DNA from: Agrococcus casei LMG 22410
GTDB taxonomy: Bacteria > Actinomycetota > Actinomycetes > Actinomycetales > Microbacteriaceae
Direction: 5' to 3'
Length of the DNA: 54,957 nt
NCBI RefSeq assembly: GCF_900163565.1
Contig: NZ_FUHU01000048.1
Coordinates: 1 to 54,957 of the forward strand
Below the pieces are notes generated by a model. The model made no database searches. It had not been told where the DNA came from and worked only from the letters and a program-made list of their open reading frames with translations. This document shows positions 7,037-54,957 of the stretch, in pieces (the stretch's first letter is position 1; every line of letters starts with the position of its first letter). The position numbers and the translations under genes were made by a program.

Positions 7037-7066
7037 TTTGCCGTTGCCCGCAGAGCACCCGGCAGA

Positions 7067-7891: not shown

Positions 7892-7901
7892 GAATACCTC
7901 G

Positions 7902-9886: not shown

Positions 9887-9919
9887 GTCAGCGTCCTTGC
9901 CTAGTTGTGACTGTCGTTG

Positions 9920-11416: not shown

Positions 11417-12099
11417 GGTTGCTCCTTGCGGTTGGCGGATTCGTTGTGTGTCTTCTGCAGGTATGCCTGCGGTGTTGCCAGCCTGTGTTCGCGCACTGCC
11501 ATCTCGACCTCGCGAGCGTCAGCATCTGACTCGATCAGCTGGACGATGCGATCGTGCTCGTCGGTCGAAGCGAGAGCGCGCTCGGGCACGAAGCCGAAGG
11601 TCGAGCTGCGCAGATGGGCGAGGCGGGTCCAGCCGCGATCGACCATGTCGAGCAGGTGCGCATTGGGGCATGAGTCAGAGAGGATGCGGTGGAAGCGCTC
11701 GTTGAGACGCGAGAATTCCTGCGCATCGAGGTGGTCAGACGTCGCCATCTCTCGCATCTGCGCATTGATGCCGCGTGCTTCGCTGATTGCCTCGGGGGTC
11801 ACCAGCGCTGCGCCAAGTGAGATCGCTGCTCCCTCTATATAGGAGAGCGCCTCGACCGTGACGAAGAACTCACGCGGGTCGATGCGCGCTACGCGGGCTC
11901 CGACGTTGCGCTCGAACGTGACGAGTCCCTCAGCCTCGAGTCGTCTGATGGCCTCGCGCACCGGCACGACGGAGACGCCCAGCTCTTTGCTGATCCCCTC
12001 GAGCACCAGCCGCTGGCCAGGGTCGAATCGGCCATTCTGGATGCTCTCGCGCACGGCTTCGTACGCAAGCTGAGACTTTGACGTCGCGGCAAGTGTCAC
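11413..12099 (-). CDS. GntR/FadR-family regulator of the hpa operon
   Basis: A 228-residue protein with an N-terminal winged HTH (SQLAYEAVRES...LGVSVVPVREAIRRLEAEGL) and a C-terminal FCD effector domain with the helix RLNERFHRILSD. The start is GTG at 12099, which overlaps the hpaG stop as GTGA and has GAGG 8 nt upstream; an in-frame ATG at 12126 lies inside hpaG. It sits inside the hpa operon, so it controls its own synthesis. Inference: it binds the two TCGTATACGA palindromes at 13582-13593 and 13635-13646, which resemble known FadR/VanR-type GntR sites, and is released by a pathway intermediate. Confidence 0.85.
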   Translation of the reverse strand: MTLAATSKSQLAYEAVRESIQNGRFDPGQRLVLEGISKELGVSVVPVREAIRRLEAEGLVTFERNVGARVARIDPREFFVTVEALSYIEGAAISLGAALVTPEAISEARGINAQMREMATSDHLDAQEFSRLNERFHRILSDSCPNAHLLDMVDRGWTRLAHLRSSTFGFVPERALASTDEHDRIVQLIESDADAREVEMAVREHRLATPQAYLQKTHNESANRKEQP

Positions 12100-41367: not shown

Positions 41368-41382
41368 TAGACTGGTCGACTG
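41368..41382 (+). promoter_or_regulatory. Leaderless -10 box of ychF
   Basis: TAGACT at 41368-41373, 8 nt before GTG 41382, with no Shine-Dalgarno sequence. Confidence 0.45.
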
Positions 41383-42455
41383 TGGCACTGACTATCGGAA
41401 TCGTGGGACTCCCCAATGTGGGCAAGTCGACCCTCTTTAACGCACTGACCAAGAACACGGTTCTCGCAGCGAACTACCCGTTCGCGACGATCGAGCCCAA
41501 CATCGGAGTCGTCGAGCTGCCGGATGCGCGGCTCGACCGGCTTGCAGAGATCTTCGGATCCGCACGACTGCTGCCAGCTCCAGTGTCGTTCGTCGACATC
41601 GCCGGCATCGTGCGCGGCGCGAGCGAGGGCGAGGGGCTCGGCAACAAGTTTCTGGCGAACATTCGCGAGGCAGATGCCATTGCTCAGGTCGTGCGCGGAT
41701 TCGCGGATGAAGACGTCACGCACGTCGACGGTCGCGTCGACCCGGCGGCCGACATGGACACGATCAACACCGAGCTGATCATCGCCGATGTCGACACCCT
41801 CGAGAAGGCGATCACGCGTCTCGAGAAAGAGGTCAAGGGCAAGAAGGCCGACCCCGCGACGCTGCAGGCAGCAAAGGATGCACTTGAGATCCTGAACACG
41901 GGTGAGACGCTCACGCAGGCCGGGTTCGACGTCGCGCCGATTCGCGAGCTCGGGCTGCTGACGGCGAAGCCGGTGCTGTTTGTCTTCAACGTCGACGAGG
42001 CAGTGCTCTCTGACCCGGCGAAGAAGCAGGAGCTTGCTGATCTTGTGGCGCCGGCCAAGGCTGTGTTCCTCGACGCGCAGGTCGAGTCGGAGCTCATCGA
42101 CCTTGAGGCTGACGAAGCGCTCGAACTGCTGCAGTCACTCGGCCAGGACGAGTCTGGTCTCGATCAACTTGCGCGCGTTGGGTTTGAGACTCTTGGTCTG
42201 CAGACGTATCTCACGGCGGGGCCCAAGGAGGCTCGTGCCTGGACGATTCGCAAGGGTGCGACGGCTCCGCAGGCGGCCGGTGTGATCCACACCGACTTCG
42301 AGCGCGGCTTCATCAAGGCCGAGATCGTGTCGTTCGAGGATCTCGACAAGCACGGATCGATGGCGGATGCGAAGGCTGCCGGCCGTGTGCGCATGGAGGG
42401 CAAGGACTACGTCATGGTTGATGGTGACGTGGTTGAATTCAGGTTCAATGTCTAA
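41382..42455 (+). CDS. ychF: Ribosome-binding ATPase YchF
   Basis: A 357-residue Obg-related P-loop ATPase. Walker A GLPNVGKST (9-17), NYPFATIEPN, DIAGIVRGASEGEGLGNKFL, an NVDE nucleotide motif in place of NKxD as expected for an ATPase, a coiled-coil hairpin near 130-200, and a C-terminal TGS domain ending KDYVMVDGDVVEFRFNV. Conserved core gene that marks the last housekeeping position before the accessory island. Confidence 0.95.
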   Translation: MALTIGIVGLPNVGKSTLFNALTKNTVLAANYPFATIEPNIGVVELPDARLDRLAEIFGSARLLPAPVSFVDIAGIVRGASEGEGLGNKFLANIREADAIAQVVRGFADEDVTHVDGRVDPAADMDTINTELIIADVDTLEKAITRLEKEVKGKKADPATLQAAKDALEILNTGETLTQAGFDVAPIRELGLLTAKPVLFVFNVDEAVLSDPAKKQELADLVAPAKAVFLDAQVESELIDLEADEALELLQSLGQDESGLDQLARVGFETLGLQTYLTAGPKEARAWTIRKGATAPQAAGVIHTDFERGFIKAEIVSFEDLDKHGSMADAKAAGRVRMEGKDYVMVDGDVVEFRFNV

Positions 42456-42982
42456 AAAGGGCCTCTGACCAGGGGTTTTATCTTCTCGGCCTCCGGTTGG
42501 GTTCGATGGACAGGTTCCGCTTTACCATCAGTTGCTAAGCGTTTGTCGCGCTGACCTGCTCTTTTGATCGTCCCCTGCGGAAGTTCCGCAGGGGACGATT
42601 CTCTTTGCGTGGGTGCATGAGCGTCGATGGCAAGCGGCCTCGGTTGGCCTGTTCCGGATCGGGTTCGAGTCGTTCGACGGGCGGCCTTTCGGCGCGAGCG
42701 CTGATTCAAAAATCACTCCGACTCAATATTCAATGCTTGGGAGATCAGCCTTCATTGACATACCGTCCATGCTTCCGAGCGTAACCAGCGGAGGCCGCAG
42801 GCACTGGTCGAGTCACCAGTGTTTGCGGGTGCTTGGCGGAGACGCTGGCGACGGCGAGAGCGAGCCGTGACCGGGGCTAGATGCCATAGGCGGTCAGGCC
42901 ACGCCAGCTCCTGCGGCTGCTCGGGATACGCCATGTGGAGCAGTTCGGAGACTCCTTCACAGGTCATCGATAGCCTCGAGGT
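42456..42982. other. Intergenic region at the island border
   Basis: 527 bp without a convincing gene. It holds the perfect hairpin at 42567-42599 and, further right, an AT-richer stretch (about 42700-42765) unlike the flanks. No tRNA, integrase remnant or long direct repeat was recognised. Confidence 0.5.
42567..42599. terminator. Perfect 16-bp hairpin terminator after ychF
   Basis: ATCGTCCCCTGCGGAA (42567-42582), one base, TTCCGCAGGGGACGAT (42584-42599), followed by TCTCTTT. This is the expected end of the ychF transcript, 111 bp downstream of its stop, and the last feature before the island. Confidence 0.75.
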
Positions 42983-42983
42983 A
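42971..42983 (+). promoter_or_regulatory. Leaderless -10 box of the kinase gene
   Basis: TAGCCT at 42971-42976, exactly 6 nt before ATG 42983. A GAGG lies in the 6-nt gap, so leadered translation from another promoter is also possible. Confidence 0.45.
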
Positions 42984-44170
42984 TGAAGACCATGGAGCAG
43001 GAGCGGGTGGAGCGCTTTGAGCGCACGTTCTATGAGAGAGACATCGACTCGACCTACCTCGAGTTGTACCGCCGGGAGCAGGTCCTGCCCCGGGCCTTCG
43101 CCTACATCCACGCTGGCCTCGATATCGAGTTCAAGCACATGAACTACAAGGCCCGTGGTGGTAGCAGCGGGCACTTCAATGCTGACAACTCGAGGAACTT
43201 ACTAGGTCTCATCGACCTCTTGACCGAAGCCCGCACGATGCTCAACAAGGCCGGTCACTCGCTGACCATGGCTCCCGAGTACCAGCGGGTCATCGAGAAC
43301 GCGCCGGCATGGCTCGTTGATAGTGGAGGGAGCCCCATCCCAGAAGGCTTCACTCCCGTCGAGGTCGAAAGCTACGCGCCAGTCTTCAGCCTTGGTGACC
43401 AAGCCGTACCAGTGTCCGATTCCCGCATTGTGAAGCTGACGCCCATCGGTGAGGGTGCATTCGCCTTGGTTCATCGGTTCACTGATCCGAACTACGGCAT
43501 GACCCTGGCAAGGAAGAAGCTCAAACCAGGGGCTGATGATCGGGAGAAGGAGCGCTTCCGCCGGGAGTTCGAGCTGATGAAAGAGCTTCAGTTCCCGTAT
43601 GTCCTTGAGGTCTTCAACTTCAAGGAGTCGGACTGGTCGTACACCATGGAACACTGCGACACCTCGCTGGAGGAGTACGTTGCGAAACGCAACAATCAGC
43701 CAGGCTTCGGCCCGACCACCCGCAAGCGAATCGCGCTGCAGTTCCTCTACGGCCTTAACTTCATCCACTCCAAGGGGCACTTCCACCGGGATCTGAGCAC
43801 CAAGAACGTCTTGCTCCGCACCTTCGGCGGTTCAGCTGTGCTGGTTAAACTGTCCGACTTCGGCCTGGCCAAGCTCAAAGGGTCCGAGTTCACGATGACG
43901 GAGACCGAACTCAAGGGTACGAAGATCGATCCAGCTCTCGGCTCGTTCAAGGACTTCACTGCTGTCCATGACATCTTCGCGGCTGGCTTCGTACTGCTGT
44001 ACATCTTCACTGGGCGGAAAAGCACCGGGCGGAACGATGCAACTCCGATCGAGCAGATCATCCACAAGTGCGTCGATTCTCAGCCTGGCCGGCGCTACCA
44101 GTCGGTGATGGACCTGATCGCTGACGTTGAGGCACTGGACACGACCGTGACTGGCGAAGCCCCAGCGTAG
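42983..44170 (+). CDS. Protein kinase with an unrecognised N-terminal domain
   Basis: A 395-residue protein. Residues 150-385 form a eukaryotic-type Ser/Thr kinase: glycine loop IGEGAFALV (155-163), ATP Lys in ARKKL (178 or 179), catalytic loop HRDLSTKN (268-275), DFGLA (292-296), and VHDIFAAGFVLLYIFTG (helix F Asp330). All catalytic residues are present. Residues 1-145 are a mostly helical, soluble domain that I do not recognise; no membrane segment or PASTA repeats follow, unlike PknB. First gene of the accessory island, convergent with a TIR-like gene 62 bp away. A defence or toxin role is inference from this context. Confidence 0.85.
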   Translation: MKTMEQERVERFERTFYERDIDSTYLELYRREQVLPRAFAYIHAGLDIEFKHMNYKARGGSSGHFNADNSRNLLGLIDLLTEARTMLNKAGHSLTMAPEYQRVIENAPAWLVDSGGSPIPEGFTPVEVESYAPVFSLGDQAVPVSDSRIVKLTPIGEGAFALVHRFTDPNYGMTLARKKLKPGADDREKERFRREFELMKELQFPYVLEVFNFKESDWSYTMEHCDTSLEEYVAKRNNQPGFGPTTRKRIALQFLYGLNFIHSKGHFHRDLSTKNVLLRTFGGSAVLVKLSDFGLAKLKGSEFTMTETELKGTKIDPALGSFKDFTAVHDIFAAGFVLLYIFTGRKSTGRNDATPIEQIIHKCVDSQPGRRYQSVMDLIADVEALDTTVTGEAPA

Positions 44171-44232
44171 ACTTCCACGCTTCGCGCCGGCCACGGACGG
44201 CGATATGAGCTCCTTCGTGTGCGGAGTGACGG

Positions 44233-45156
44233 TCAGGACGATTCGACGACTCTCCAGCGGAAGTCGACGAAGGGTGGGACGTATTGACTGCCGTTGGTGT
44301 CCTCGTGCTGTACCCGGAGGATTTCGACGACGGCCAGTCGCCCGTGCGCATTCATGAGCACGACGCTGTGGCCAACCTGTGGAGTGACAGATCGTCCGGG
44401 CGTGAGGTGCTGTGCGAGATCGGCGTCGTCGACGTCGTTGCCTCGGATCAGGCCGACGGACTTGATTGGGTCCTTGTGCACGTACACCGAGTCGTACGAG
44501 CGTCCGCTGATATCGAGCGCGAACTCAGAAGCTCCACAGCCCCAATGGAACCTGTTACCGGGCGCGTCTTCGTACATGAAGTGGGTCTCGCCGACGAGAT
44601 GTGGACTTCTCCATTGGGCTGGGGAACTGCTCAGGTCCTGCCGCTCGAGCCGTGTGGCTCGCTCACGTAGAGTCGCGATAGGTGTAGCGCTGTCGCGGTT
44701 GGCCGGCAGCCCTGCGACCCAGCGCCACAGATCCTCGATCTGCCCTGCCCCGGGGAACTCCTGCTGGCTGCCGGGGGAGTGATTGAAATCGAAGCCCTTG
44801 GGCATCCGGTCGCCGAACCATGCTGGCAGGGCGCACGAGGCGTTGTCGACGAAGAGGGTGGAGAGCCAGGCAGGGGCGCGGTCCTCGTAGACCTCGGCTA
44901 TCCAGCGGCTCTCTTTGCCCACACCTGACTCGGGCTTGGTGTCGGCTCGTTCGACGTAGTTCTGGTCCACGACTAGCAGAACGTGCTCGCAGTCCGCGAC
45001 TCGGCGCATGAATCCGCTCAGGTCGTCGCCGTAGTCGACGTCGGCATCAACCAGGACGTCGAACCCCAGTGCCTTGAGCTGCGCAGCGAGCAGGCGCACC
45101 CACTCGCGGTGCCTCTCCGACGTCCAGGCGTACGAGATGAACAGGTCAGCGCCCAT
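44233..45156 (-). CDS. TIR/SEFIR-like domain protein with an unrecognised C-terminal domain
   Basis: About 307 residues. Residues 4-125 look like a TIR/SEFIR domain: LFISYAWTSERHREWV at the first strand, LKALGFDVLVDADVDYG, DCEHVLLVVDQNYVERAD, and SRWIAEVYE, where Glu88 sits in the S-x-W-x-x-E arrangement of NAD-cleaving TIR enzymes. After a Trp-containing linker, residues about 170-307 are a beta-rich domain (FHWGCGASEFALDISG, VTPQVGHSVVLMNAHGRLAV) of unknown type, perhaps a sensor. I start at ATG 45156 because GAGGA lies 6 nt before it; ATG 45168 is possible. Likely an abortive-infection NADase, by inference. Confidence 0.75.
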   Translation of the reverse strand: MGADLFISYAWTSERHREWVRLLAAQLKALGFDVLVDADVDYGDDLSGFMRRVADCEHVLLVVDQNYVERADTKPESGVGKESRWIAEVYEDRAPAWLSTLFVDNASCALPAWFGDRMPKGFDFNHSPGSQQEFPGAGQIEDLWRWVAGLPANRDSATPIATLRERATRLERQDLSSSPAQWRSPHLVGETHFMYEDAPGNRFHWGCGASEFALDISGRSYDSVYVHKDPIKSVGLIRGNDVDDADLAQHLTPGRSVTPQVGHSVVLMNAHGRLAVVEILRVQHEDTNGSQYVPPFVDFRWRVVESS

Positions 45157-45183
45157 GGGTTTCCTCATTCCGATCGGCTGAGT

Positions 45184-45203
45184 GCTGCTCGCACGTGAGC
45201 AGC
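45184..45203. promoter_or_regulatory. Palindrome upstream of the TIR-like gene
   Basis: GCTGCTC-GCACGT-GAGCAGC: 7-bp perfect arms, 28 bp before ATG 45156. A possible operator or attenuator hairpin. The rest of 45204-45323 holds no recognisable feature. Confidence 0.45.
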
Positions 45204-45323
45204 TGTCATCAGGAGACTACGGTCGGCGACGGACAAATTGGGGCCATGGCCAGACTCGGCACCGTATTGGCGACACCGGGAGCGACCTGTCGGCGTGGAG
45301 TAGGGCCTGGACGACCTCATTCA

Positions 45324-46208
45324 CTAGGGCAGGTCTCGTTCCGTCAGAGTGCGAGTGATCTCGTCCCACTGGGAGCTTGCGATCAATTCGCGGTGCCGGC
45401 GTGAGGCGGTCTGCCATGACCCGAACTCTGCGGGGAGCTCGCGCCACGTGATGCCGGTGCGGGTCTTGTAGAGAGCCGCGTCGACGATCGTGCGTACGTC
45501 AGTGCGTGGACGCCCGCGGCGAGGGCCCTCTTCTGAATGAACGATGTGCTTGATCCAGCTCCATTGTTCATCCGTGAGTCGTTGATAGCCAGGCTGGAGT
45601 CTCTCGATGTCGGTGCTGTCGTCACCGTTCTTCGCCTGGTCATCGAGTCGCACGGCTTTGACCACGCCGCGGATGACAGCGCATTCGGTGCATTGGACGG
45701 TTGGTTCCACGTAGCGAGGGGAGTGCCCGACCAAGGTCTCGACGTGCTGGCAGGTCAGTTCCACTCGCCAGGTGGCGCTGCGGTCGATGTGCAATGAGGG
45801 CGGGTACAGGAGCTGTCGGAGCTCATCGCGCTGAGCCGGCGAAAGCGGCGGGAACGGGCAGCACAGATGACAGTGCTCCACCCTGTTGTTCTCGAGACGC
45901 CAAACACCCATCTTGCATGCCGTGTGCTCGACTCGGAACTCGGCATTATCGGCGTCGATCCGCGCAAGGCTCTCTTCGTCCGTGCCCAGGGCCGGCTCAC
46001 CGAGAAGGGCACGCCCACACGCGCGGCATGGTTCGCCCGCCGCATAGGCTTCATACGGCAACTGGGGGTCGTTGCCTGCCCACTCCTCTCGCTTTGCCTC
46101 CTCCGCTTGGGCCCACGATTCCGAGAGCAGTGCCCTGCTGCGTGGTGTGTGCAGGACGCGGGGGAGGGCGTTCGGGCCGTCCTCTGGGATCTGTTGTGGG
46201 TCGGGCAT
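45324..46208 (-). CDS. Cys-rich zinc-knuckle protein fused to an IS402-type DNA-binding domain (DUF4096)
   Basis: A 294-residue protein. Residues 1-60 acidic helical; 61-176 contain CxxC pairs (C61/C64, H112-C113/C116-C117, C173/C176) plus C98 and C153, probably two or more zinc sites. Residues 205-290 match the N-terminal part of IS5/IS402 transposases (LTDEQWSWIKHIV, GRPRTDVRTIVDAALY, GITWRELPAEFGSWQT). The DDE catalytic part is absent and the ORF ends cleanly; no terminal repeats flank it. So it looks like a DNA-binding protein built from a transposase domain, not a working transposase. ATG 46208 with AAGGAG upstream; GTG 46214 possible. Divergent from an Xre gene. Confidence 0.7.
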   Translation of the reverse strand: MPDPQQIPEDGPNALPRVLHTPRSRALLSESWAQAEEAKREEWAGNDPQLPYEAYAAGEPCRACGRALLGEPALGTDEESLARIDADNAEFRVEHTACKMGVWRLENNRVEHCHLCCPFPPLSPAQRDELRQLLYPPSLHIDRSATWRVELTCQHVETLVGHSPRYVEPTVQCTECAVIRGVVKAVRLDDQAKNGDDSTDIERLQPGYQRLTDEQWSWIKHIVHSEEGPRRGRPRTDVRTIVDAALYKTRTGITWRELPAEFGSWQTASRRHRELIASSQWDEITRTLTERDLP

Positions 46209-46277
46209 CGTCACGCTCTCCTTCGAGGTCTGATGCGGGCGCGGGGCGAGTCGTGCGCGAACACCCGGGCCGCAACT

Positions 46278-46307
46278 GGAAGCGATAACTTCCTGGAAGT
46301 CATGACT
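46278..46307. promoter_or_regulatory. Xre operator region
   Basis: GGAAG-CGATAA-CTTCC (46278-46293) and the palindrome AGTCATGACT (46298-46307), the latter centred on the xre start codon. It lies in the 93-bp region shared by the divergent genes and is a candidate autoregulatory site. Confidence 0.45.
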
Positions 46308-46544
46308 ACCAGGCATGAGGCTGGATGTGTGACAGAACCGCTGAAGAAGGTGCTCGGAGCGCAGGTGCGCGACCTGCGTCTTGTGCGCCACCTGTCGCAG
46401 GAAGGTCTTGCCGAAGAACTCGGAGTGTCGACTCGGTACCTTGCCGGCATCGAGCGTGGCGAGCGCAACCTCACGCTGGATTCGGTCGACGCCCTCGCCG
46501 AGCAACTCGGCGTCGAGGCGCACGCACTAATCGTTCGTCGGTGA
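46302..46544 (+). CDS. Xre-family HTH transcriptional regulator
   Basis: An 80-residue protein, essentially one Cro/C1-type HTH: LGAQVRDLRLVRHLSQEGLA...LGVSTRYLAGIERGERNLTLDSVDALAEQLGVE. The size matches the controller (C) proteins of restriction-modification systems and other small island regulators. ATG 46302; GTG 46329 would remove nine residues outside the HTH. It is upstream of hsdMSR on the same strand, and divergent from the Cys-rich/DUF4096 gene, so it could control either or both. Confidence 0.85.
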   Translation: MTTRHEAGCVTEPLKKVLGAQVRDLRLVRHLSQEGLAEELGVSTRYLAGIERGERNLTLDSVDALAEQLGVEAHALIVRR

Positions 46545-46550
46545 TGCTCG

Positions 46551-46694
46551 TTGCGTGAGCTGGAGGGCCACGGCATCACGCCTGAGACCGACGCACTGCT
46601 CGATTGCCGGGTCACGATCCCGATGAGTGGCCGCGTCGACTCGTTGAACATGACGGCCGCAGCGGCTGTGGCGTTCAACGAGTCGACGCGGTGA
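46551..46694 (+). pseudogene. 3' remnant of a SpoU/TrmH-type rRNA methyltransferase gene
   Basis: Directly after the xre stop and in the same frame, 47 codons read LEGHGITPETDALLD...VTIPMSGRVDSLNMTAAAAVAFNESTR and stop. The IPM.G.VDSLN...AAAV pattern is the conserved C-terminal knot end of SpoU-family 2'-O-methyltransferases. No 5' part of such a gene is present, so this is debris left by rearrangement. Its last third is part of a perfect inverted repeat. Confidence 0.65.
46631..46691. repeat. 19-bp perfect inverted repeat upstream of hsdM
   Basis: CCGCGTCGACTCGTTGAAC (46631-46649) and its exact complement GTTCAACGAGTCGACGCGG (46673-46691), 23 bp apart, with an inner GCCG/CGGC stem. About 97 bp before the hsdM ATG. 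It may act as a terminator/attenuator or protein site, or mark a recombination event. Confidence 0.75.
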
Positions 46695-46788
46695 TGATGC
46701 GGGAAGCCCGAGTGTCAGTGGCACCCGATATCGTGAGAGCAAATACCCCAACACCGTGATTGCGCAGTGGCGCGGAGGAGCACGACCT

Positions 46789-48357
46789 ATGGCACCGACC
46801 ACCAAAGAGGCGCAGCGAGCTGAGTTGCACAAGACGATCTGGCGCATCGCGAACGACCTGCGTGGCAGCGTCGACGGGTGGGACTTCAAGTCCTACGTGC
46901 TGGGCATGCTGTTTTATCGCTTCATCTCCGAGAACCTCACGGCGTACCTCAACAAGCACGAGCACGATGCGGGCGACGTGTCGTTCGACTACCGGCTGGT
47001 GGCGGATTCCGACGCGGAGTTCGCTCGCGACGAGGTCGTCGCGGAGAAGGGGTTCTATATCCTGCCGTCCGACCTGTTCGCCAATGTGCGCGATCGTGCC
47101 TCGGGCGACGAGAATCTCAACGAGACGCTCGAGCGGGTTTTTAAGAACATCGAAGCGTCGGCGATGGGTACGGACAGTGAGGATGACATCAAGGGTCTGT
47201 TCGACGACTTGGATGTCAACAGCAACAAGCTGGGCTCAACTGTTGCCAAGCGCAATCAGAAGATGGTGAAGCTGCTCGACGCGATCGGTGATCTGCCGCT
47301 GGCGCGGTGGGAGGACAACTCGATCGATCTGTTCGGTGATGCCTACGAGTACCTGATGCAGATGTATGCGGCCAACGCGGGTAAGTCCGGTGGTGAGTAC
47401 TACACGCCGCAGGAGGTTTCGGAGCTGCTGGCGCGCATCACTGTGGTCGGCAAGAAGCAGGTCAACAAGGTCTACGACCCGGCCGTCGGATCGGGGTCGC
47501 TGCTGCTGAAGTTCGACAAGGTGCTCGGGAAGAACAACGTCCGCCAGGGGTTCTACGGTCAGGAGATCAATCTGACCACGTACAACCTCGCGCGGATCAA
47601 CATGTTCCTGCACGACGTGAACTACGCGGACTTCAACCTCGCGCACGGCGACACACTACTCGACCCCGCCCACTGGGACGACGAGCCGTTCGAGGCGATC
47701 GTCTCCAACCCGCCCTACTCGATCAAGTGGGAAGGCGACGCCAACCCGCTCCTGATCAACGACGAGCGATTCTCGCCAGCCGGCGTCCTCGCGCCGAAAT
47801 CGAAGGCCGACCTCGCCTTCACGATGCACATGCTCAGCTGGCTCGCCGTCAACGGCACGGCGGCGATTGTCGAGTTCCCCGGCGTGCTGTACCGCGGGGG
47901 AGCTGAGCAGAAGATTCGCCAGTACCTGGTCGACAACAACTACATCGATGCGGTCATTCAGTTGCCGCCGGACCTGTTCTTCGGCACGACGATCGCGACC
48001 TGCATCCTCGTGCTGAAGAAGTCGAAGAAGTCCGGCGACGTGCTATTCATCGACGCGTCGGCCGAGTTCAAGCGCGTCGGCAACAAGAACAAGCTGCTCG
48101 AGGAGCACCAGGCGAGGATCCTCGAGGCGTTCACGACGCGCGAGCCCCAGGCTCACTTCGCCACGATCGTAGGCAACGAGCACATTGCGGCGAATGACTA
48201 CAATATCGCGGTGTCGTCGTATGTCGAGGCCGAGGACACTCGCGAGGAAGTCGACATCGCGGAGCTGAACGCCGAGATCGCGCGCATCGTCGAGCGCCAG
48301 GCCGAGCTCCGCACGGCGATCGATGAGATCGTGACGGACTTGGAGGGCTCCAGGTGA
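46789..48357 (+). CDS. hsdM: Type I restriction-modification DNA methyltransferase subunit M
   Basis: A 522-residue N6-adenine methyltransferase subunit. An N-terminal helical HsdM_N domain (about 1-160), SAM motif I DPAVGSGSLL (230-239), and the catalytic NPPY at 307-310 (SNPPYSIKWEGD). With HsdS it forms M2S1, methylating a bipartite site; with HsdR it restricts. ATG 46789 with GGAGGAG about 9 nt upstream; GTG 46756 is in frame but less likely. A 4-bp GTGA overlap with hsdS. Confidence 0.93.
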   Translation: MAPTTKEAQRAELHKTIWRIANDLRGSVDGWDFKSYVLGMLFYRFISENLTAYLNKHEHDAGDVSFDYRLVADSDAEFARDEVVAEKGFYILPSDLFANVRDRASGDENLNETLERVFKNIEASAMGTDSEDDIKGLFDDLDVNSNKLGSTVAKRNQKMVKLLDAIGDLPLARWEDNSIDLFGDAYEYLMQMYAANAGKSGGEYYTPQEVSELLARITVVGKKQVNKVYDPAVGSGSLLLKFDKVLGKNNVRQGFYGQEINLTTYNLARINMFLHDVNYADFNLAHGDTLLDPAHWDDEPFEAIVSNPPYSIKWEGDANPLLINDERFSPAGVLAPKSKADLAFTMHMLSWLAVNGTAAIVEFPGVLYRGGAEQKIRQYLVDNNYIDAVIQLPPDLFFGTTIATCILVLKKSKKSGDVLFIDASAEFKRVGNKNKLLEEHQARILEAFTTREPQAHFATIVGNEHIAANDYNIAVSSYVEAEDTREEVDIAELNAEIARIVERQAELRTAIDEIVTDLEGSR

Positions 48358-49517
48358 GCCGCATCGACGAACTGATTCAGGACCTGTGTCCGTCCGGTGT
48401 GGAGTACGAGGCGATCGCGGAACTCATCACTCGTAGTGAGAAGGTGCATTGGGACGACCTCGATCAGACCGACGAATTTCGTTACATCGACCTCAGCACG
48501 GTTGACCGTGTCACGCATTCAATCAACGGCACAGAGACGATCACGAAAGAGAACGCTCCGAGTCGAGCGCAGCAAGTGGTGCGCGAAGGCGACGTTCTGT
48601 TCGGGACGACGCGGCCGATGCTCAAGCGATACTGCATCGTTCCGGCGGATTACGACGGGCAGGTAGCGAGTACCGGATTTTGTGTGCTTCGCGCGAACAC
48701 CGATCGCATTCTGACGAACTTCCTCTTCCATCTTCTCGGAACGGCCACGTTCTACGAATACGTCCAAACGAACGAACGCGGTGCTAGCTATCCGGCTATT
48801 CCTGACAACGTGGTGAAGAAGTTCCGCATCCCCGTGCCACCTCTCGAGGTGCAACGCGAGATCGTGCGAGTATTGGATAAGTTCACTCAGCTGGAAGCGG
48901 AGCTGGAAGCGGAGCTGGAAGCGGAGCTGGAAGCTCGACGCGCCCAGTACGAGCTTTATCGCCGAGCGCTCCTGGGTGCTGAAGAACGCGATTCTCTCCA
49001 GCCGCTCGGGAAGTTGCTGATCTCAGTTCGAGTTCCGAAAGGCGTCAAGCGGGGCGCTTACGGAGACGGGAGCGCGATCCCAATTGTCGACCAAGGGAAG
49101 TCTGCGATCGCCGGTTTCACGGATGACGATTCCTTCCGCGTTCCGGCCGGCGAGCATATCGTTTTTGGTGACCACACTCGTGCCGTCAAGTGGGTCGATC
49201 ACGATTTTGCTCCCGGCGCGGACGGCACACGAGTCTTTCGTGCTCGAGAGGGGGTACTACCTCGATACGCATTCTTTGCTTTCCAGCAACTAGAGATTCC
49301 GAGTCGTGGGTACAACCGGCACTGGACTGTTGCAAGGGAGATGACGGTCCCGGTTCCGAGTTTGAAGCGCCAGCGCGAGATTGTCACAATCCTGGACCAA
49401 TTCGACGCCCTCGTCAACGACATCAGCATCGGCCTCCCGGCCGAGCTCACGGCACGTCGCAAGCAGTACGAGTACTACCGTGACCGGCTCCTGACGTTCA
49501 AGGAGCTGACGGCATGA
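48354..49517 (+). CDS. hsdS: Type I restriction-modification specificity subunit S
   Basis: A 387-residue subunit with two target recognition domains (about 20-165 and 215-345), each followed by a conserved helical spacer (PVPPLEVQREIVRVLDKF and PVPSLKRQREIVTILDQF). The central spacer holds the repeat LEAE x3 plus LEAR from Leu180, followed by RRAQYELYRRALL; the C-terminal spacer has the parallel LTARRKQYEYYRDRLL. In EcoR124I/EcoDXXI the number of TAEL repeats at this place sets the length of the non-specific gap in the recognition sequence. TRD specificities cannot be told from sequence alone. Confidence 0.92.
   Translation: MSRIDELIQDLCPSGVEYEAIAELITRSEKVHWDDLDQTDEFRYIDLSTVDRVTHSINGTETITKENAPSRAQQVVREGDVLFGTTRPMLKRYCIVPADYDGQVASTGFCVLRANTDRILTNFLFHLLGTATFYEYVQTNERGASYPAIPDNVVKKFRIPVPPLEVQREIVRVLDKFTQLEAELEAELEAELEARRAQYELYRRALLGAEERDSLQPLGKLLISVRVPKGVKRGAYGDGSAIPIVDQGKSAIAGFTDDDSFRVPAGEHIVFGDHTRAVKWVDHDFAPGADGTRVFRAREGVLPRYAFFAFQQLEIPSRGYNRHWTVAREMTVPVPSLKRQREIVTILDQFDALVNDISIGLPAELTARRKQYEYYRDRLLTFKELTA
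48891..48935 (+). repeat. 12-bp tandem repeats in the hsdS central spacer
   Basis: CTGGAAGCGGAG occurs three times without change (48891-48902, 48903-48914, 48915-48926) and is followed by a partial copy CTGGAAGCT. Each unit adds four residues (LEAE). Perfect in-frame repeats like these are prone to gain or lose copies by slippage or recombination. Confidence 0.85.
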
Positions 49518-52500
49518 GCGATGTTCCGGCGCGTGCGTACGATCCGATCGCTGTCTCGTCGGAGAGCACGGTCGTCGCGGAGTACGTTCACGACCCGTCG
49601 CAGGCTGATGCGTATCAGTCGGAGTCCGCGCTCGAGAAGGAGATTGTCCGACTCCTTCAGGGGCAGGCCTACGACTACCTGCCGTTCACCTCCGAGGCGG
49701 AGCTGGTCGCGAATCTTCGCGTGCAGCTCGAGAAGGTCAACAGGATCACCTTTTCGGATGCCGAGTGGGAGCAGTTCTTTACGACGAAGATCGCAGGTGC
49801 TAACGACGGCATCGTCGAGAAGACGGTGCGTGTGCAGGAGGATCACGTCCAGATCCTCAGGCGCGACGATGGTACGACGAAGAACATCGCGCTGATCGAC
49901 AAGACGAATATCCACAACAATCGGCTGCAGGTCATCAATCAGTACGAGATCGGACGCGGTGAGGGCGACGCTGGCGAGGGCGGTGCGAGGTACGCCAATC
50001 GCTACGACGTGACCGTGCTCGTCAACGGGCTGCCGATGGTGCACATCGAGCTGAAGCGTCGCGGTGTGGATATCCGGGAGGCCTTCAACCAGATCAATCG
50101 CTATCGGCGCGATAGCTTCTGGGCGGGGTCGGGCCTGTTCGAGTACGTGCAGTTGTTCGTGATCAGCAACGGCACTCTCACGAAGTATTACTCCAACAGC
50201 ACTCGCAACAGGCACCTGGCCGAGCAGAAGAATTCTGGTGGTGCTGGCGGGGGTAGGAAGACGAGTAACTCATTCGAGTTCACCAGTTGGTGGGCCGATG
50301 CGAACAACAAGCCGATCACCGAGCTGACGGCGTTCGTGAAGACGTTCTTCGCGAAGCACTCGCTGTTGAACATCCTGACGAAGTACTGCGTGCTCACCGC
50401 GGATCGGGACCTGCTTGTGATGCGGCCGTACCAGATCGTCGCGACCGAGCGGATCTTGCAGAAGATCCAGATCTCGACGAACTACAAGACGCTCGGCACA
50501 CTCGACGCCGGAGGATATGTCTGGCACACCACTGGTTCGGGTAAGACGCTCACCTCGTTCAAGGCGGCGCAGCTCGCATCAAAGATGCCGAGTGTGGACA
50601 AGGTGCTGTTCGTCGTGGACCGCAAGGACCTCGACTATCAGACAATGCGCGAGTACGACCGGTTTGAGAAGGGCGCGGCGAACTCGAACACGTCCACTGC
50701 GGTGCTGAAGAAGCAGCTCGAGGACCCCGGTGCGCGGATCATCATCACGACGATTCAGAAGTTGTCGACGTTCATCAAGGCGAACAAGGGTCACGAAGTC
50801 TTCTCGGGCCACGCTGTGATCATCTTCGATGAGTGCCACCGGTCGCAATTCGGCGACATGCACACAGACATCACCCGTGCGTTCAAGAAGTACAACGTGT
50901 TCGGGTTCACTGGCACGCCGATCTTCGCCGCGAACGCCGGCAGCGGTGGCAACCCACAGTTGCGCACGACTGAGCAGGCGTTCGGCGACAAACTGCACAC
51001 CTACACGATCGTCGACGCCATCACCGATAAGAACGTGCTGCCGTTCCGGATCGACTACATCAACACCATCAAGGTCGGGAACCCCGACGACTCGCAGGTG
51101 TCAGCGATCGACCGTGAGCGAGCTCTCCTGGACGTGCGTCGGATCCGCGACGTCGTGGCGTACACCCTGGAGCACTTCGATCAGAAGACGAAGCGCTCAT
51201 CGAGCTACGAGCATGGCGTCGTGACGAACGTCGCCGACTCGGTGCGGGGCCGTCGTCAGGCGGAGGGACTCAAGGAGCGGAAACGAGTTCGCGGATTCAA
51301 CGCGCTGTTCGCGACGGCGTCGATCGATGCCGCACGCCGTTACTACAACCAGTTCCAACTACAGATGGAGGAGCTGCCACCGGACAAGCGGCTGAAGGTC
51401 GGGTTGATCTTCAGTTACGGCGCGAACGAGGCCGAAGCCGACGGAATCCTCGATGATGAAGCGTTCGACACCGATGCGCTCGACCTTGACGCGCGCTCGT
51501 TCCTGGAAGATGCGATCCAGGACTACAACGACATGTTCGGGACCAGCTACGACACGAGCGCCGACCGGTTCCAGAACTACTACAAGGACCTGTCGCAGCG
51601 GATGAAGAACCGCGAGATCGACCTGGTCATCGTGGTGAACATGTTCCTCACCGGCTTCGACGCGACGACGCTGAACACGCTGTTCGTCGACAAGAACCTG
51701 CGCGCCCACGGACTGATCCAGGCGTACTCGCGCACGAACCGCATCCTCAACTCGGTGAAGACCTACGGCAACATCGTCGCCTTCCGCGATCTCGAGGAAG
51801 AGACGAACGCCGCGCTGGAGCTGTTCGGCAACAAGGATGCCCGAGGCGTCGTCCTGTTGAAACCGTACGGCGACTACTACGGCGAGTATGTCGACAAGGT
51901 CACCGAACTGCTCACGCACTTCCCAATTGGGCAGCAGATCGTGGGGGAGCAGGCGCAGAAGGACTTCATCCAGCTGTTCGGCACGATCCTGCGGCTGCAG
52001 AACATCCTCACGTCCTTCGACGACTTCGACGGCAACGACCCACTGACCGAGCGACAGCGGCAGGACTACACCAGCATCTACCTGCGGCTCCGCGATGAGT
52101 TCACGCGCGATCGTGACGGCGACAGAGAAGTCATCAACGAGGACGTCGTGTTCGAGATCGAGCTCGTCAAGCAGGTCGAGATCAACGTCGACTACATCCT
52201 CATGCTCGTCGAGAAGCTCCGCGCCGAGAAGGGCGACGGAGAGGACAAGGAAGTCCGCGCCGAGATCACGCGCGCTGTCGATGCGAGCCCGACCCTGCGA
52301 AGCAAGCGCGATCTCGTCGAGGACTTCGTCGAGTCGGTGTCGCTGCTGGGCGCGGTCGATGCGCAGTGGCAGGCGTATATCGCCGCGAAGCGCGAGGCTG
52401 AGCTTCAGGAGCTCATCGAAGCGCACAAGCTCAAGCTGGAGGAGACGCAGTCGTTCGTGGATGAGGCGTTCCGGGACGGACAGCTGCGCACGGCGGGAAC

Positions 52501-52648
52501 TGAGATCACCCGCATCTTGCAGCCAGTGTCACGGTTCAACCGCGAGTCCAACCACGGCGACAAGAAGAAGCGGGTCATCGAAGCGCTCTCCAGATTCTTC
52601 GAGCGGTTCCGCGGGCTTGCCTCGGGGGATGAAGAGTCTAGGGACTGA
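49514..52648 (+). CDS. hsdR: Type I restriction endonuclease subunit R
   Basis: A 1044-residue EcoR124I-type HsdR. N-terminal PD-(D/E)xK nuclease: Asp165 (RYDVTVLV), then Glu179 and Lys181 (HIELKRRG). Helicase motor: Walker A GSGKT (341-345), DECH (439-442), GFTGTP, and NMFLTGFD plus QAYSRTNR in the second RecA domain. A C-terminal helical domain binds the methylase. It cleaves unmodified DNA far from the site after ATP-driven translocation. It overlaps hsdS by 4 bp (ATGA). Intact, with all motifs present. Confidence 0.94.
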   Translation: MSDVPARAYDPIAVSSESTVVAEYVHDPSQADAYQSESALEKEIVRLLQGQAYDYLPFTSEAELVANLRVQLEKVNRITFSDAEWEQFFTTKIAGANDGIVEKTVRVQEDHVQILRRDDGTTKNIALIDKTNIHNNRLQVINQYEIGRGEGDAGEGGARYANRYDVTVLVNGLPMVHIELKRRGVDIREAFNQINRYRRDSFWAGSGLFEYVQLFVISNGTLTKYYSNSTRNRHLAEQKNSGGAGGGRKTSNSFEFTSWWADANNKPITELTAFVKTFFAKHSLLNILTKYCVLTADRDLLVMRPYQIVATERILQKIQISTNYKTLGTLDAGGYVWHTTGSGKTLTSFKAAQLASKMPSVDKVLFVVDRKDLDYQTMREYDRFEKGAANSNTSTAVLKKQLEDPGARIIITTIQKLSTFIKANKGHEVFSGHAVIIFDECHRSQFGDMHTDITRAFKKYNVFGFTGTPIFAANAGSGGNPQLRTTEQAFGDKLHTYTIVDAITDKNVLPFRIDYINTIKVGNPDDSQVSAIDRERALLDVRRIRDVVAYTLEHFDQKTKRSSSYEHGVVTNVADSVRGRRQAEGLKERKRVRGFNALFATASIDAARRYYNQFQLQMEELPPDKRLKVGLIFSYGANEAEADGILDDEAFDTDALDLDARSFLEDAIQDYNDMFGTSYDTSADRFQNYYKDLSQRMKNREIDLVIVVNMFLTGFDATTLNTLFVDKNLRAHGLIQAYSRTNRILNSVKTYGNIVAFRDLEEETNAALELFGNKDARGVVLLKPYGDYYGEYVDKVTELLTHFPIGQQIVGEQAQKDFIQLFGTILRLQNILTSFDDFDGNDPLTERQRQDYTSIYLRLRDEFTRDRDGDREVINEDVVFEIELVKQVEINVDYILMLVEKLRAEKGDGEDKEVRAEITRAVDASPTLRSKRDLVEDFVESVSLLGAVDAQWQAYIAAKREAELQELIEAHKLKLEETQSFVDEAFRDGQLRTAGTEITRILQPVSRFNRESNHGDKKKRVIEALSRFFERFRGLASGDEESRD

Positions 52649-52676
52649 GGCCAGCAATGAGTGGGATCATGGGCTC

Positions 52677-52862
52677 ATGACCGAGGACAACCCCGAGCGC
52701 GCGCCGAAGGTCATCCGCTGTGAGCACTGGTCTGAGGAGCTTGGTCGCTTCGGCGGCTGGCACCACCACGAGGGCCCTCACGCTTGCGACTGGGGGAACC
52801 ACGATGGCGAGTGTCCGTACTGGGTCAGCGTTGGCGGTAGGCCAAACCTCCCATCTCGGTAG
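52677..52862 (+). CDS. Small His/Cys-rich protein, uncharacterised
   Basis: A possible 61-residue protein starting MTEDNPERAPKVIRCEHW. Residues 15-48 hold Cys15, HHH at 29-31, and the segment PHACDWGNHDGECPYW, which together could bind one zinc ion. No family recognised. Start ATG 52677 has GATCAT exactly 6 nt upstream, like the leaderless -10 boxes elsewhere in the window but lacking the first T. It sits 28 bp after hsdR on the same strand. Coding is not certain; the ordered His/Cys spacing is the main argument. Confidence 0.4.
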   Translation: MTEDNPERAPKVIRCEHWSEELGRFGGWHHHEGPHACDWGNHDGECPYWVSVGGRPNLPSR

Positions 52863-53095
52863 AGGGAGTCGGGTAGCCATGCCAAGCCGTCCAGTGGCGC
52901 GCCGGCTGGCACCCTCGCGACTCTGCCAGAACCCTGGGTGATAGCTTGGTTTCAGGTCATATGGCGGCAAAGGGACAGCCTTAGCGCCAAAGGTTCCGAA
53001 ATCACCGGAATGCGGTGGAGTTCCGGACGGGACTTACGTCGGGAAGTAAGAAATAGCCCGGACGCGCTACGGATGATGACGAAGGAGCCCTATCC
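52863..53095. other. Intergenic region before the methyltransferase gene
   Basis: 233 bp without a supported gene. It contains a short inverted repeat CTTAC/GTAAG (53033-53050) and the ribosome binding site GAAGGAG 8 nt before GTG 53096. Confidence 0.5.
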
Positions 53096-54199
53096 GTGTC
53101 GAGACTGACGGAACTGCTGCGGCAGGTGCGCAAGGCGGACGCGCAACTTGGTACTGACCTGGAAGCCGAGGTCGCTGCGCTGACCAAGCGTCGCACCTTC
53201 GGGCTCGTCTTTGAGCAGCATCAGCCTGAGGCTGTCGAGCTGCCCGGCAGGGTCGTCCGTCGCGGCGACAAGGTGCGGGTGCTGCCTCCGCGAGGGGGGA
53301 CAAAGGCAGGTGACCAACGGCTGTGGTGGACAACTCGGATCGAGTGCGTCGACGGGCAGCGTGTGGCTCATCTCGCGGAGCTCGACGTCGAAGAACCCGA
53401 GACTCGGGCAGTGCTTGCCGACGACGTGGTGGTCGTCGCGGAGTTCCGGGATCGCATCTACCCCGGCCTGGTGGAGACAGGCAGGGTTGAGCGGGGCGGC
53501 GACAAGCCGTTCCACACGGTCGTCAACGCTGAGAACTACCACGCGCTGGAGATGCTGACCTATACGCACCGGCATTCCATCGACGCCATCTACATCGACC
53601 CGCCGTACAACACCGGGGCGAGGGACTGGAAGTACGACAACGATTACGTCGCGAGTGATGACGACTATCGACACTCGAAATGGCTGGCGTTCATGGAGCG
53701 ACGGTTGAAGATCTGTCGGGAGCTCATGCGTAGCGATGCTACTCTTGTGGCAACTATCGATGAGCATGAAGTAAACCGTTTGGGCGTGTTGCTAGATCAG
53801 CTCTTCCCGGAATCTACGCGGCAACTCGTCACAATTGTCAACAACCCTAAAGGCGTTACTCAGGGATATCTTTCGAGGGTCGAAGAGTATGCGTTCTTTG
53901 TATTTGGTCCTGACGCGCGAATCGGTTCGGTCGATGACGACCTTCTGACGCATCGAGACATGGCCGATGCTGAAGGGGAACTGCAGAGGCCTCGATGGAA
54001 GGGGCTCTTGCGGTCGGGCGACGACTCGCTTCGAGCTGACCGTAAAGATATGTTCTATCCGGTGTGGTTCGATGAGTCGACTGGGCGACTCAGCCACGCG
54101 GGCGAAGCATTGCCACTTGACGAAACTCCTGACTTCAGTCCGCAGGATGGCCTGACGCCGATCTGGCCTATTAGGGGCTCTTCACAATTCGGGGTGTAG
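53096..54199 (+). pseudogene. Site-specific DNA (adenine) methyltransferase, truncated by an ISL3 element
   Basis: Residues 1-110 are an N-terminal domain with a coiled start and beta-rich part; 140-230 is the start of a Mod-like (type III or related) methyltransferase with DPPYNTG at 168-174, after which SAM motif I would follow. After codon 360 the frame enters the terminal repeat of an insertion sequence at 54176; seven IS-encoded residues (GSSQFGV) and a TAG end it. Most of the methyltransferase and any partner gene lie beyond the element or are lost. GTG start with GAAGGAG. Likely from a second R-M or related defence system next to hsdMSR. Confidence 0.8.
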
Positions 54200-54957
54200 G
54201 TGTGGTCTGAATCCGCCGGCTTCGAGGAGTGCGCGGGCGATGTAGTTGGTGGGGTTGCGGAAGCCGAGGGCCAGGCCACGCAGGTGCTCGAGGCGACCGT
54301 TCACGGCTTCGGTAGGTCCGTTGCTCGTGCGCGGCCGGTCGAAGTAGGCCAGGACGTCGCAGGCGCGTCTGGTCAGGGTGCGGCCGAGCTTGCGCAGTTC
54401 TACCAACGCCTCAGGCACACTGTCGGCGAGGGCGTCGATCACGGAGCTCATCTCGACGCGGCCGGCTGCCCGGTCGGGGTGACGGTAGGCGGAGATCATG
54501 CGCTGGTAGATCCCCCAGGTGCACTCGACTTGCACGTGCCGGTCCCCAGCGAAGAGCTTGTCAAGGCGCTCGTGCTGGCGGTCGGTGAGCAGGTCAGCCC
54601 CGGTGTGCAGGGTCCGCCGCGCGGTGTAGAGCGGGTCGCCCTTGCGTCCGCGGTGTCCGTGCAGTTCCTGCTGGACTCGGCGGCGGCACTCATCGAGAGC
54701 GTCCCCGGCCAACCGGATGACGTGGAAGGGATCCATAACCGTGACGGCGTCCGGCAGCTCCTCGGTAGTGGCGGTCTTGAAGCCCGCGAACCCATCCATG
54801 GCCACGACCTCGATCCCATCGCGCCAAGCCTGGTCCCGCTCGGCCAGCCAGTCCTTGAACGCCTTCTTCGACCGACCTTCGACCACGTCCAGCAGGCGTG
54901 AGGGGTCTGCTGAGGGTTTGGTTGAGTCGGGGGGTTTATGCCGCCAGTGTGACGGCT
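54176..54957 (-). mobile_element. ISL3-family insertion sequence (partial at window edge)
   Basis: The boundary is the terminal repeat GGCTCTTCACAATTCGGGGT starting at 54176, typical of ISL3-family ends (GGCTCTTC...). The transposase stop lies within this repeat. The other end is outside the window, so target duplication cannot be checked. Confidence 0.85.
54182..54957 (-). CDS. ISL3-family transposase (5' part beyond window)
   Basis: At least 258 codons open to the window edge. The C-terminal DDE_Tnp_ISL3 domain is seen: VVAMDGFAGFKTA (catalytic Asp), AVTVMDPFHVIRLAGDALDECRRRVQQ (second Asp, His), a helical insertion, and RTSNGPTEAVNGRLEHLRGLALGFRN with the final Glu and the typical NGxxEAxNG-like motif. 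The protein ends RPHLHPEL. The codons upstream of a GTG at 54886 continue in frame (DSTKPSADPSRLLD), so that GTG is not the true start. Confidence 0.9.
   Translation of the reverse strand, partial: PSHWRHKPPDSTKPSADPSRLLDVVEGRSKKAFKDWLAERDQAWRDGIEVVAMDGFAGFKTATTEELPDAVTVMDPFHVIRLAGDALDECRRRVQQELHGHRGRKGDPLYTARRTLHTGADLLTDRQHERLDKLFAGDRHVQVECTWGIYQRMISAYRHPDRAAGRVEMSSVIDALADSVPEALVELRKLGRTLTRRACDVLAYFDRPRTSNGPTEAVNGRLEHLRGLALGFRNPTNYIARALLEAGGFRPHLHPEL

Follow-up and report, generated by a model that had tools for sequence, protein, structure and literature searches.

A gene cassette in the last codons of ychF in Agrococcus casei LMG 22410, and its relation to tandem ychF-end arrays and large serine integrases

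Behind ychF in Agrococcus casei LMG 22410 stands a set of accessory genes that a preliminary description had taken for a defence island. Our analysis of the 54,957-nucleotide stretch that carries them (here called the window, and equal to the entire contig C1) leaves this interpretation standing in part and gives the set a sharper identity, that of a bounded cassette within a family of tandem cassettes. The cassette runs from 42432 to 53014 (10.6 kb) and is inserted in the ychF 3′ end. We consider it probable that it is a site-specific cassette, placed in the last ychF codons by a large serine integrase (LSI) of ychF-integrating phages or elements, and that the arrays to which it belongs are integron-like, with the LSI acting in trans. 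The cassette boundaries, the replaced ychF codons, the displaced copies of the ychF end, the arm that they share and the LSIs beside the same arm and core can all be read directly in the DNA. The target gene and the two junctions are as follows.

41382..42455, plus strand: ychF, the target gene (protein identity 81–87% in 20 genus relatives)
42432..42455, plus strand: the last eight ychF codons, GTT GAA TTC AGG TTC AAT GTC TAA, supplied by the cassette (left junction)
42456..42732, no strand assigned: conserved left block, with a perfect hairpin of 16-bp arms at 42567–42599
52657..53014, no strand assigned: conserved right block, its last 30 bp (52985–53014) being the right arm (score 10.7)
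53015..53026, plus strand: displaced ychF-end piece GTGGAGTTCCGG (right junction)

At the left junction, all 20 genus relatives read GTG or GTC, GAG, TTC and CGC or CGG, unlike the GTT GAA TTC AGG of the window. Last codons of the cassette type also occur in most loci of the constant gene of this cassette type, which encodes a Cys/His-rich protein with a C-terminal DUF4096 domain (Cys-DUF4096). As the left end codes for replacement last codons, the target gene survives the insertion. Of the 12 Cys-DUF4096 loci, all but L111 have the left block behind ychF, which L055 has once as well, and the hairpin, previously read as the point where the island begins, belongs to this travelling block. At the right, the element in L101 (a Gulosibacter macacae record) ends in a junction at which ...CACCGGAACGCG meets GTGGAATTCCGGTTTAACGTCTGA, a complete ychF 3′ end 8.4 kb from ychF, and those of L102, L106 and L111 end in the same manner. 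The window cassette is accordingly bounded by left and right attachment (att) sites at one target, as cis-mobilizable elements (CIMEs) are, its right core matching ychF for 12 bp. The accessory material had been thought to reach 54957; the edge at 53014 leaves a truncated methyltransferase gene and an ISL3 element outside as neighbouring material.

Comparable sites recur behind ychF in other genomes. Four of the 20 genus relatives repeat a 24-bp degenerate ychF-end motif with no more than one mismatch (L048, L053, L054 and, three times, L055), L050 has decayed copies of it, and displaced ychF ends of the same quality lie in 5 of the 12 Cys-DUF4096 loci; base shuffles of ten loci (five each, one strand, 915,020 bases) held no motif at up to three mismatches. 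The DNA downstream of ychF differs among the 20 relatives, save for a few that share a cassette, and the same genes were not found at the same place in all close relatives. In a control that used exact 24-mers from each locus's own ychF at up to three mismatches, the last ychF windows recur in 3–4 of the 20 genus loci, whereas windows from other parts of the gene recur in 0.045 loci on average and in 3 at most; at up to four mismatches, in 45 loci partly chosen for their arrays, the last windows recur in 17–19 loci and the others in 0.395 on average and in 8 at most. A strict form of the motif is present in 218 of 388 Microbacteriaceae genomes, about 40 of which have two or more copies (a few have them on different strands or contigs, and a subset was inspected), and the reversed pattern scored 0 in every row listed.

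Nineteen multi-site regions were retrieved for closer reading, and in 14 of them the stretch includes ychF with the first site at its end. Extending the stretches located ychF in three more genomes, 2.7 kb from the sites (G1010), 36 kb upstream (G1121) or on another contig, at its end (G1179); it was not reached within the extended G1067 and G1102 stretches. Taking a cassette as the interval between neighbouring sites at up to two mismatches, we delimited 46 cassettes in 28 loci, ranging from 432 to 12,829 bp with a median near 1.15 kb, two of which, in the different genomes L048 and L054, are near-identical. Several of the sites are degenerate. Among 112 open reading frames (ORFs) predicted in these cassettes by a codon score trained on the window, 88 are co-oriented with ychF. 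At a cut-off of E ≤ 1e-3, a search with three tyrosine integrases and an LSI profile, whose positive control worked, gave no match in the 46 cassettes or in the window cassette, and within that scope they are integrase-less, as CIME-type elements are.

The right arm links these sites to serine integrases. It is a conserved element of about 30 bp, approximately GAxGTTxxTCxGxxxCGxAACGTG, and a profile built from 41 distinct arms at 53 displaced sites gave a leave-one-out mean of 12.5, compared with a random mean of −19.4. The window arm, at 10.7, lies above the random 99.9th percentile of 5.4 and above every arm of ychF itself (these average 2.9 and reach 10.2). Scanning IMG/VR for the pattern gave 11 viral contigs, and in five of these (L198, L199, L201, L203 and L205) the arm and core lie 34–77 bp from the start of an LSI of 449–459 aa; the other six hold a whole ychF (L204), a ychF end (L197, L200, L202, L206) or a ychF-like stretch (L207). 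All five viral proteins, and the integrase of G1125, combine an N-terminal Resolvase domain with a Recombinase domain in the manner of LSIs of about 450 aa. The five viral arms score 6.5–22.0, four of them exceeding the best ychF arm. A profile of the five integrases matches 59 of 386 genomes of the family (E ≤ 1e-60), and in 6 of the 30 genomic loci listed, which are six of the seven best-scoring, a site stands 25–60 bp from the LSI, with arms at 1.6, 7.9, 11.2, 15.0, 16.5 and 24.7. At the seventh, in G1121, sites follow the integrase at distances of 3 and 7 kb, and ychF lies 32 kb from it in the other direction; the 23 weaker loci have no site within 1.5 kb on each side. Microbacterium phages, for example, carry relatives of the integrase at 40–44% identity. 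In G111, 40.5 kb (an interval that was sampled) separate ychF from the site next to the integrase, and in G1125 the tandem order is ychF, a 7-kb LSI-bearing element, a site, an 817-bp PIN cassette without integrase and a further site.

The cargo of the arrays was surveyed by scanning against Pfam 81 of the 93 frames left after Cys-DUF4096, Xre and restriction-modification (R-M) genes had been dropped (sets of 24, 22 and 35, with the best 25 of 45, then 28 and 30 families reported for the three sets). The families listed include toxin-antitoxin pairs (HigB with HTH, HepT with nucleotidyltransferase, PIN with a FitA-like antitoxin, ParE with Phd), further Abi_2, AbiEi/AbiEii, AbiJ/Abi_C, AIPR, TIR, AAA, Cap15 and DUF6119, and also glyoxalases, hydrolases, acetyltransferases and regulators. 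PADLOC models, run on two of the sets (59 proteins), matched a cyclase of the cyclic-oligonucleotide-based anti-phage signalling system (CBASS; 3e-121), AbiU (2e-157), AbiEii (2e-71) and Old (3e-44). HigBA-like toxin-antitoxin cassettes, whole or partial, lie behind ychF in L048, L053, L054, L055, L181, L183, L184, L185 and L192, several of them starting with TAGCGTTAATGACG-type DNA directly 3′ of the ychF end.

These observations enabled us to propose a model. In this model, the LSI of a ychF-integrating phage or element would recombine at the last codons of ychF, and a cassette without integrase would enter the ychF end, its left end restoring the last codons and its right end joining the integrase arm to the displaced ychF end. 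Such cassettes do pile up in tandem behind ychF, both in the family and elsewhere in Actinomycetota, and toxin-antitoxin, abortive-infection, R-M, CBASS, TIR or kinase genes are present in many of them. It is plausible that the LSI, acting in trans, captures and exchanges cassettes from a shared pool, and the cargo suggests that an array may serve as an anti-phage gene library with a defence function. Whether this amounts to a serine-integrase counterpart of the integron, with ychF as fixed capture site, phage integrases in trans and an Actinomycetota-wide pool of small toxin and anti-phage cassettes, is a possibility that we put forward tentatively, at a little under even chances.

A number of points weigh against the model. 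No excision or capture event was observed, and the cargo lists record plain presence rather than enrichment over neighbouring genes. The profile fits some arms badly, with a leave-one-out minimum of −26.8, and the upstream arms of ychF itself reach 10.2, a score that two of the six genomic LSI arms (1.6 and 7.9) fail to exceed. An LSI could be placed by ychF only in G1121 and G1125 of the roughly 40 multi-site genomes, the LSI of the A. casei genome itself, on contig C25, has no such site within 1.5 kb, and tyrosine integrases or their fragments are also found at ychF (G018, G012, G1121, G1125, L205). The exact-24-mer control at up to three mismatches overlaps its elsewhere-in-gene maximum of 3 and recovers only 1 of 12 Cys-DUF4096 loci, whose near and far copies of the ychF end differ in codons. 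Finally, the right core of the window agrees with the ychF end for only 12 bp; as the match stops there, the adjoining methyltransferase stretch is not a plain empty site.

Four other explanations have to be weighed against LSI-driven capture. The cassettes could be decayed phages or mobile elements, remnants of the CIME type that kept their att sites and accreted in tandem, with no capture or exchange as cassettes. Such accretion is documented for CIMEs (PMC5704250), several of our sites are degenerate, and the same site is occupied by LSI elements, one of 7 kb in G1125 and others measuring tens of kb in G111 and G1121; the small size of the 46 units, most of them below 2 kb, and the orientation of their ORFs, 88 of 112 of which share the strand of ychF, speak against it, however, and the near-identical cassettes of L048 and L054, together with a 1.2-kb core conserved in distant genera, suggest independently travelling units. 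We judge this explanation rather unlikely. That a tyrosine and not a serine integrase moves the cassettes appears less likely still, and improbable overall, even though G018 has a 246-aa tyrosine-integrase frame directly 3′ of ychF (with a relative in G012), G1125 a fragment (72% over 46 aa), L205 a tyrosine integrase adjoining the site and G1121 another near its LSI, and an imperfect inverted repeat surrounds the core at some sites. In G018 no displaced ychF end follows within about 78 kb behind ychF, in G004, with four sites, both PF00589 matches are far from ychF, and in most cases it is serine integrases that stand beside the cassette arm.

An ordinary defence island, built at a tolerant spot by insertion sequence (IS) elements and homologous recombination, would fit the ISL3 copies at the right side and on contig C46 and the occurrence of R-M, kinase and SEFIR genes on plasmids elsewhere. 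It would not be expected to replace the codons of ychF, to displace the end of the gene exactly or to give cassettes an arm in common, and the junctions already make it very improbable. The Cys-DUF4096 protein might itself be the recombinase, since it is the constant gene of the cassette type and DUF4096 is described in Pfam as a putative IS4/5 transposase domain. By Pfam, however, it has no catalytic transposase domain, its gene is in only the few cassettes of this type among the 46, and relatives lacking DUF4096 are located away from ychF, so that we regard this last proposal as scarcely credible.

The genes in and beyond the window cassette are the following.

42983..44170, plus strand: Ser/Thr protein kinase with its own N-terminal domain, cargo (Pkinase 2.6e-27)
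44233..45168, minus strand: SEFIR/TIR-domain protein, cargo (TIR_2 3e-11; SEFIR 2.3e-7; PADLOC bSEFIR 1e-39, residues 8–160)
45324..46208, minus strand: Cys/His-rich protein with C-terminal DUF4096, constant gene of the cassette type (DUF4096 1.7e-19)
about 46329..46544, plus strand: Xre-type regulator, divergent from the Cys-DUF4096 gene (HTH_3 3.8e-12)
46789..48357, plus strand: hsdM, type I R-M methylase
48354..49517, plus strand: hsdS, specificity subunit, with 12-bp repeats near 48889–48934
49514..52648, plus strand: hsdR, type I restriction subunit (EcoR124_C 2.2e-70)
53096..54199, plus strand: truncated type III mod, beyond the cassette (PADLOC type III methyltransferase 8.8e-130, profile positions 1–363 of 709)
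54174..54957, left edge approximate, minus strand: ISL3 element, cut by the contig end, beyond the cassette (transposase 8e-55)

Profile matches bear out the genes that the preliminary description had listed (kinase, TIR-like, Cys-rich/DUF4096, Xre, type I R-M, second methyltransferase and ISL3), and the base composition that it proposed to check does change, G+C being 0.58–0.64 from 42 kb on and 0.62–0.68 leftward. HsdM, HsdS and HsdR carry their family domains and are encoded in one overlapping operon (46789–52648), which identifies an EcoR124-like type I R-M system. The type III mod is cut at about half its length at the ISL3 end of the window, and no further part of it was found in the genome. 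Between xre and hsdM, where a gene fragment had been noted, the stretch 46545–46790 has no long frame; from its motif we take it to resemble the end of a SpoU methylase. A 30-bp inverted repeat (87%) lies within this remnant at 46631–46691 and recurs, inverted, in L102, and a small Cys/His/Trp-rich frame (about 60 aa) at 52677–52862, near the right cassette end, is also present in L102, L106 and L111. Synteny from greedily chosen longest ORFs is unreliable in DNA this GC-rich and served as a lead only.

A scan of named genome contigs for the Cys-DUF4096 protein found 28 loci: eight with the complete 294-aa protein at 85–89% identity (Gulosibacter, Kocuria, Propioniciclava, two Brachybacterium, Microbacterium and two Brevibacterium records), six with partial proteins at 80–91% and 14 with distant ones (28–38%). 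Plasmids had suggested a chance IS5 remnant (0 of 290 records cover at least 80%), an idea ruled out by the eight full-length loci; DUF4096 belongs to the conserved 294-aa protein as a constant portion and is no stray piece of a transposase. It is missing from the full frames of three distant relatives, the other distant rows ending at the match. Twelve residues are invariant in 22 aligned rows (C61, C64, H95, C98, H112, C113, C116, C153, H155, H162, C173 and C176), a pattern that makes the protein probably zinc-binding. Plasmid relatives of its Cys-rich part adjoin a TIR gene and type I R-M (L093), AbiE (L099, L100) or a Wadjet JetD gene (L098). The gene is real and defence-associated, and the earlier view of the uncharacterised genes as defence candidates stands to this extent, although the loose island in which they were placed has given way to a bounded cassette.

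In other genera, the gene or its remnant starts 0.3–4.1 kb behind ychF in all 12 testable loci, that is, in those of the 14 close loci whose stretch includes ychF (L110 and L114 are short contigs). A 1.2-kb core of this cassette type is conserved across distant genera, and its middle is exchangeable: kinase DNA is common to the window, L102 and L107, and the latter two have a frame of 579–590 aa at the position of the window's SEFIR gene. In the protein set that includes the L102 frame, a single member matches AAA_15 and PADLOC Old (3e-44), presumably this frame. Behind Xre there are EcoR124-type genes in the window, L102, L103, L110 and L111, a different type I set (frames read by eye) in L101, L104, L105, L107, L108 and L113, and no R-M genes in L106; L109, L112 and L114 are outside this tally. 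The constant pair, the zinc-site/DUF4096 protein and the divergent Xre, may regulate the R-M genes that usually follow. Between the window, L102, L103 and L111, HsdM is 93–96% and HsdR 94–96% identical, and the window HsdS is 35–37% identical to the other three (L103 and L111 share 69%), with four LEAE-type units from the 12-bp repeats in the window and three, four and three in L102, L103 and L111. R-M specificity is what varies between these cassettes. In the reversed Brevibacterium locus L106, a CBASS pair (cyclase and Cap15 effector) within 5345–11867 has the left block on one side and another, incomplete copy of that block on the other.

The SEFIR protein was found in its own genome and as one weak match among the 199 nearest genomes. 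The kinase query matches 199 of 199, and the listed matches other than its own copy begin at residue 109 or later, in the kinase domain; its N-terminal domain alone gave its own genome and one weak match in 396 genomes of the phylum. As the SEFIR protein and the kinase N-terminus are near-absent from relatives, the inserted DNA is foreign to the genus, and in this respect the description of an accessory insertion behind ychF was correct. Full-length relatives of the kinase are on Bacillota plasmids, and the N-terminal domain (about 150 aa, 42983–43432) is common to plasmid kinases of Lactococcus, Geobacillus, Priestia, Sarcina and Paenibacillus (26 plasmid records); in L090 and L092 a recombinase gene lies directly upstream of the kinase relative. 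SEFIR relatives at 61–66% are on Rhodococcus and Tsukamurella plasmids, and a broken copy, 81% identical over residues 3–77, is in the ychF array of G923 (L190, 4858–5261). A conserved kinase–SEFIR pair was considered and rejected: no kinase is annotated near the SEFIR relatives L088 and L089, and no SEFIR gene near the kinase relatives L090–L092 and L095–L097. bSEFIR defence proteins deplete NAD+ and protect against phages. The window protein shares their SEFIR domain (PADLOC 1e-39, residues 8–160), but its C-terminus (161–311) is uncovered by the model. Likewise, the kinase domain matches the PADLOC kinases Stk2, PD-T4-6 and mad6 at 1e-25 to 1e-31, whereas the N-terminus (1–150) is uncovered, and the Stk2 match spans residues 152–384 and model positions 129–353 of 500, short of the whole model.

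The other border had been expected beyond 54957, where the contig ends inside the ISL3 element; it is likely to be on contig C46. Besides one more exact ychF-end site (71078–71101, minus strand), this contig has two degenerate copies, located close to ISL3 elements at about 70118 and about 69217. Part of its array matches that of G1179 (81% over 701 bp), and beyond about 67704 the contig, read in reverse, matches the sequence that follows ychF in L054, L059, L065 and L066. These matches suggest that C1 and C46 may adjoin across an IS-rich gap, with C46 providing the likely other border of the variable stretch. The CinA-like anchor gene of relatives, tried as a right-border marker, had no match in the A. 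casei genome.

In an integron, small gene cassettes, most of them in the same orientation, are lined up at a single capture site and served by an integrase in trans. The ychF arrays share this line-up of small, mostly co-oriented cassettes at one site, but they have no adjacent intI-type gene, the end of ychF with the arm of a serine integrase is their site of recombination, and the target gene stays intact; in G004 the two PF00589 matches lie away from ychF, and ychF ends take the place of attC sites. As in LSI phages, the integrase gene, where found, adjoins its attachment site, although most ychF cassettes have neither phage genes nor integrase. The closest known kind is the tandem CIME, an element derived from integrative and conjugative or integrative and mobilizable elements that accretes in tandem, integrase-less between att sites and stacked at the 3′ end of one gene (PMC5704250). 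Compared with the CIMEs described there, the ychF cassettes differ in being mostly of one or two genes near 1 kb, an integron-like unit size and arrangement, in having arms of a serine-integrase clade and ychF as target, and in carrying much toxin and abortive-infection cargo. Pneumococcal prophages and satellites also use the ychF region as an integration target, but there, in another phylum, the att sequences are different and the elements sit on the upstream side of the gene (PMC8637289, PMC10383233). Among the best-ranked open-access literature matches we found no account of a ychF 3′-end site in Actinomycetota or of serine-integrase cassette arrays.

The cassette accounts for a kinase, a SEFIR protein, an R-M system and an uncharacterised zinc-site/DUF4096 protein standing together in the window, and it suggests a simple rule for finding defence and toxin genes, namely to read between the ychF-end repeats. 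It also offers a testable case of gene cassettes that would be moved by a phage serine integrase and not by an integron tyrosine integrase, and the LSIs with their sites are candidate site-specific insertion tools for Actinomycetota. If the model is true, the defence library of a host would be assembled by an enzyme that its phages provide.

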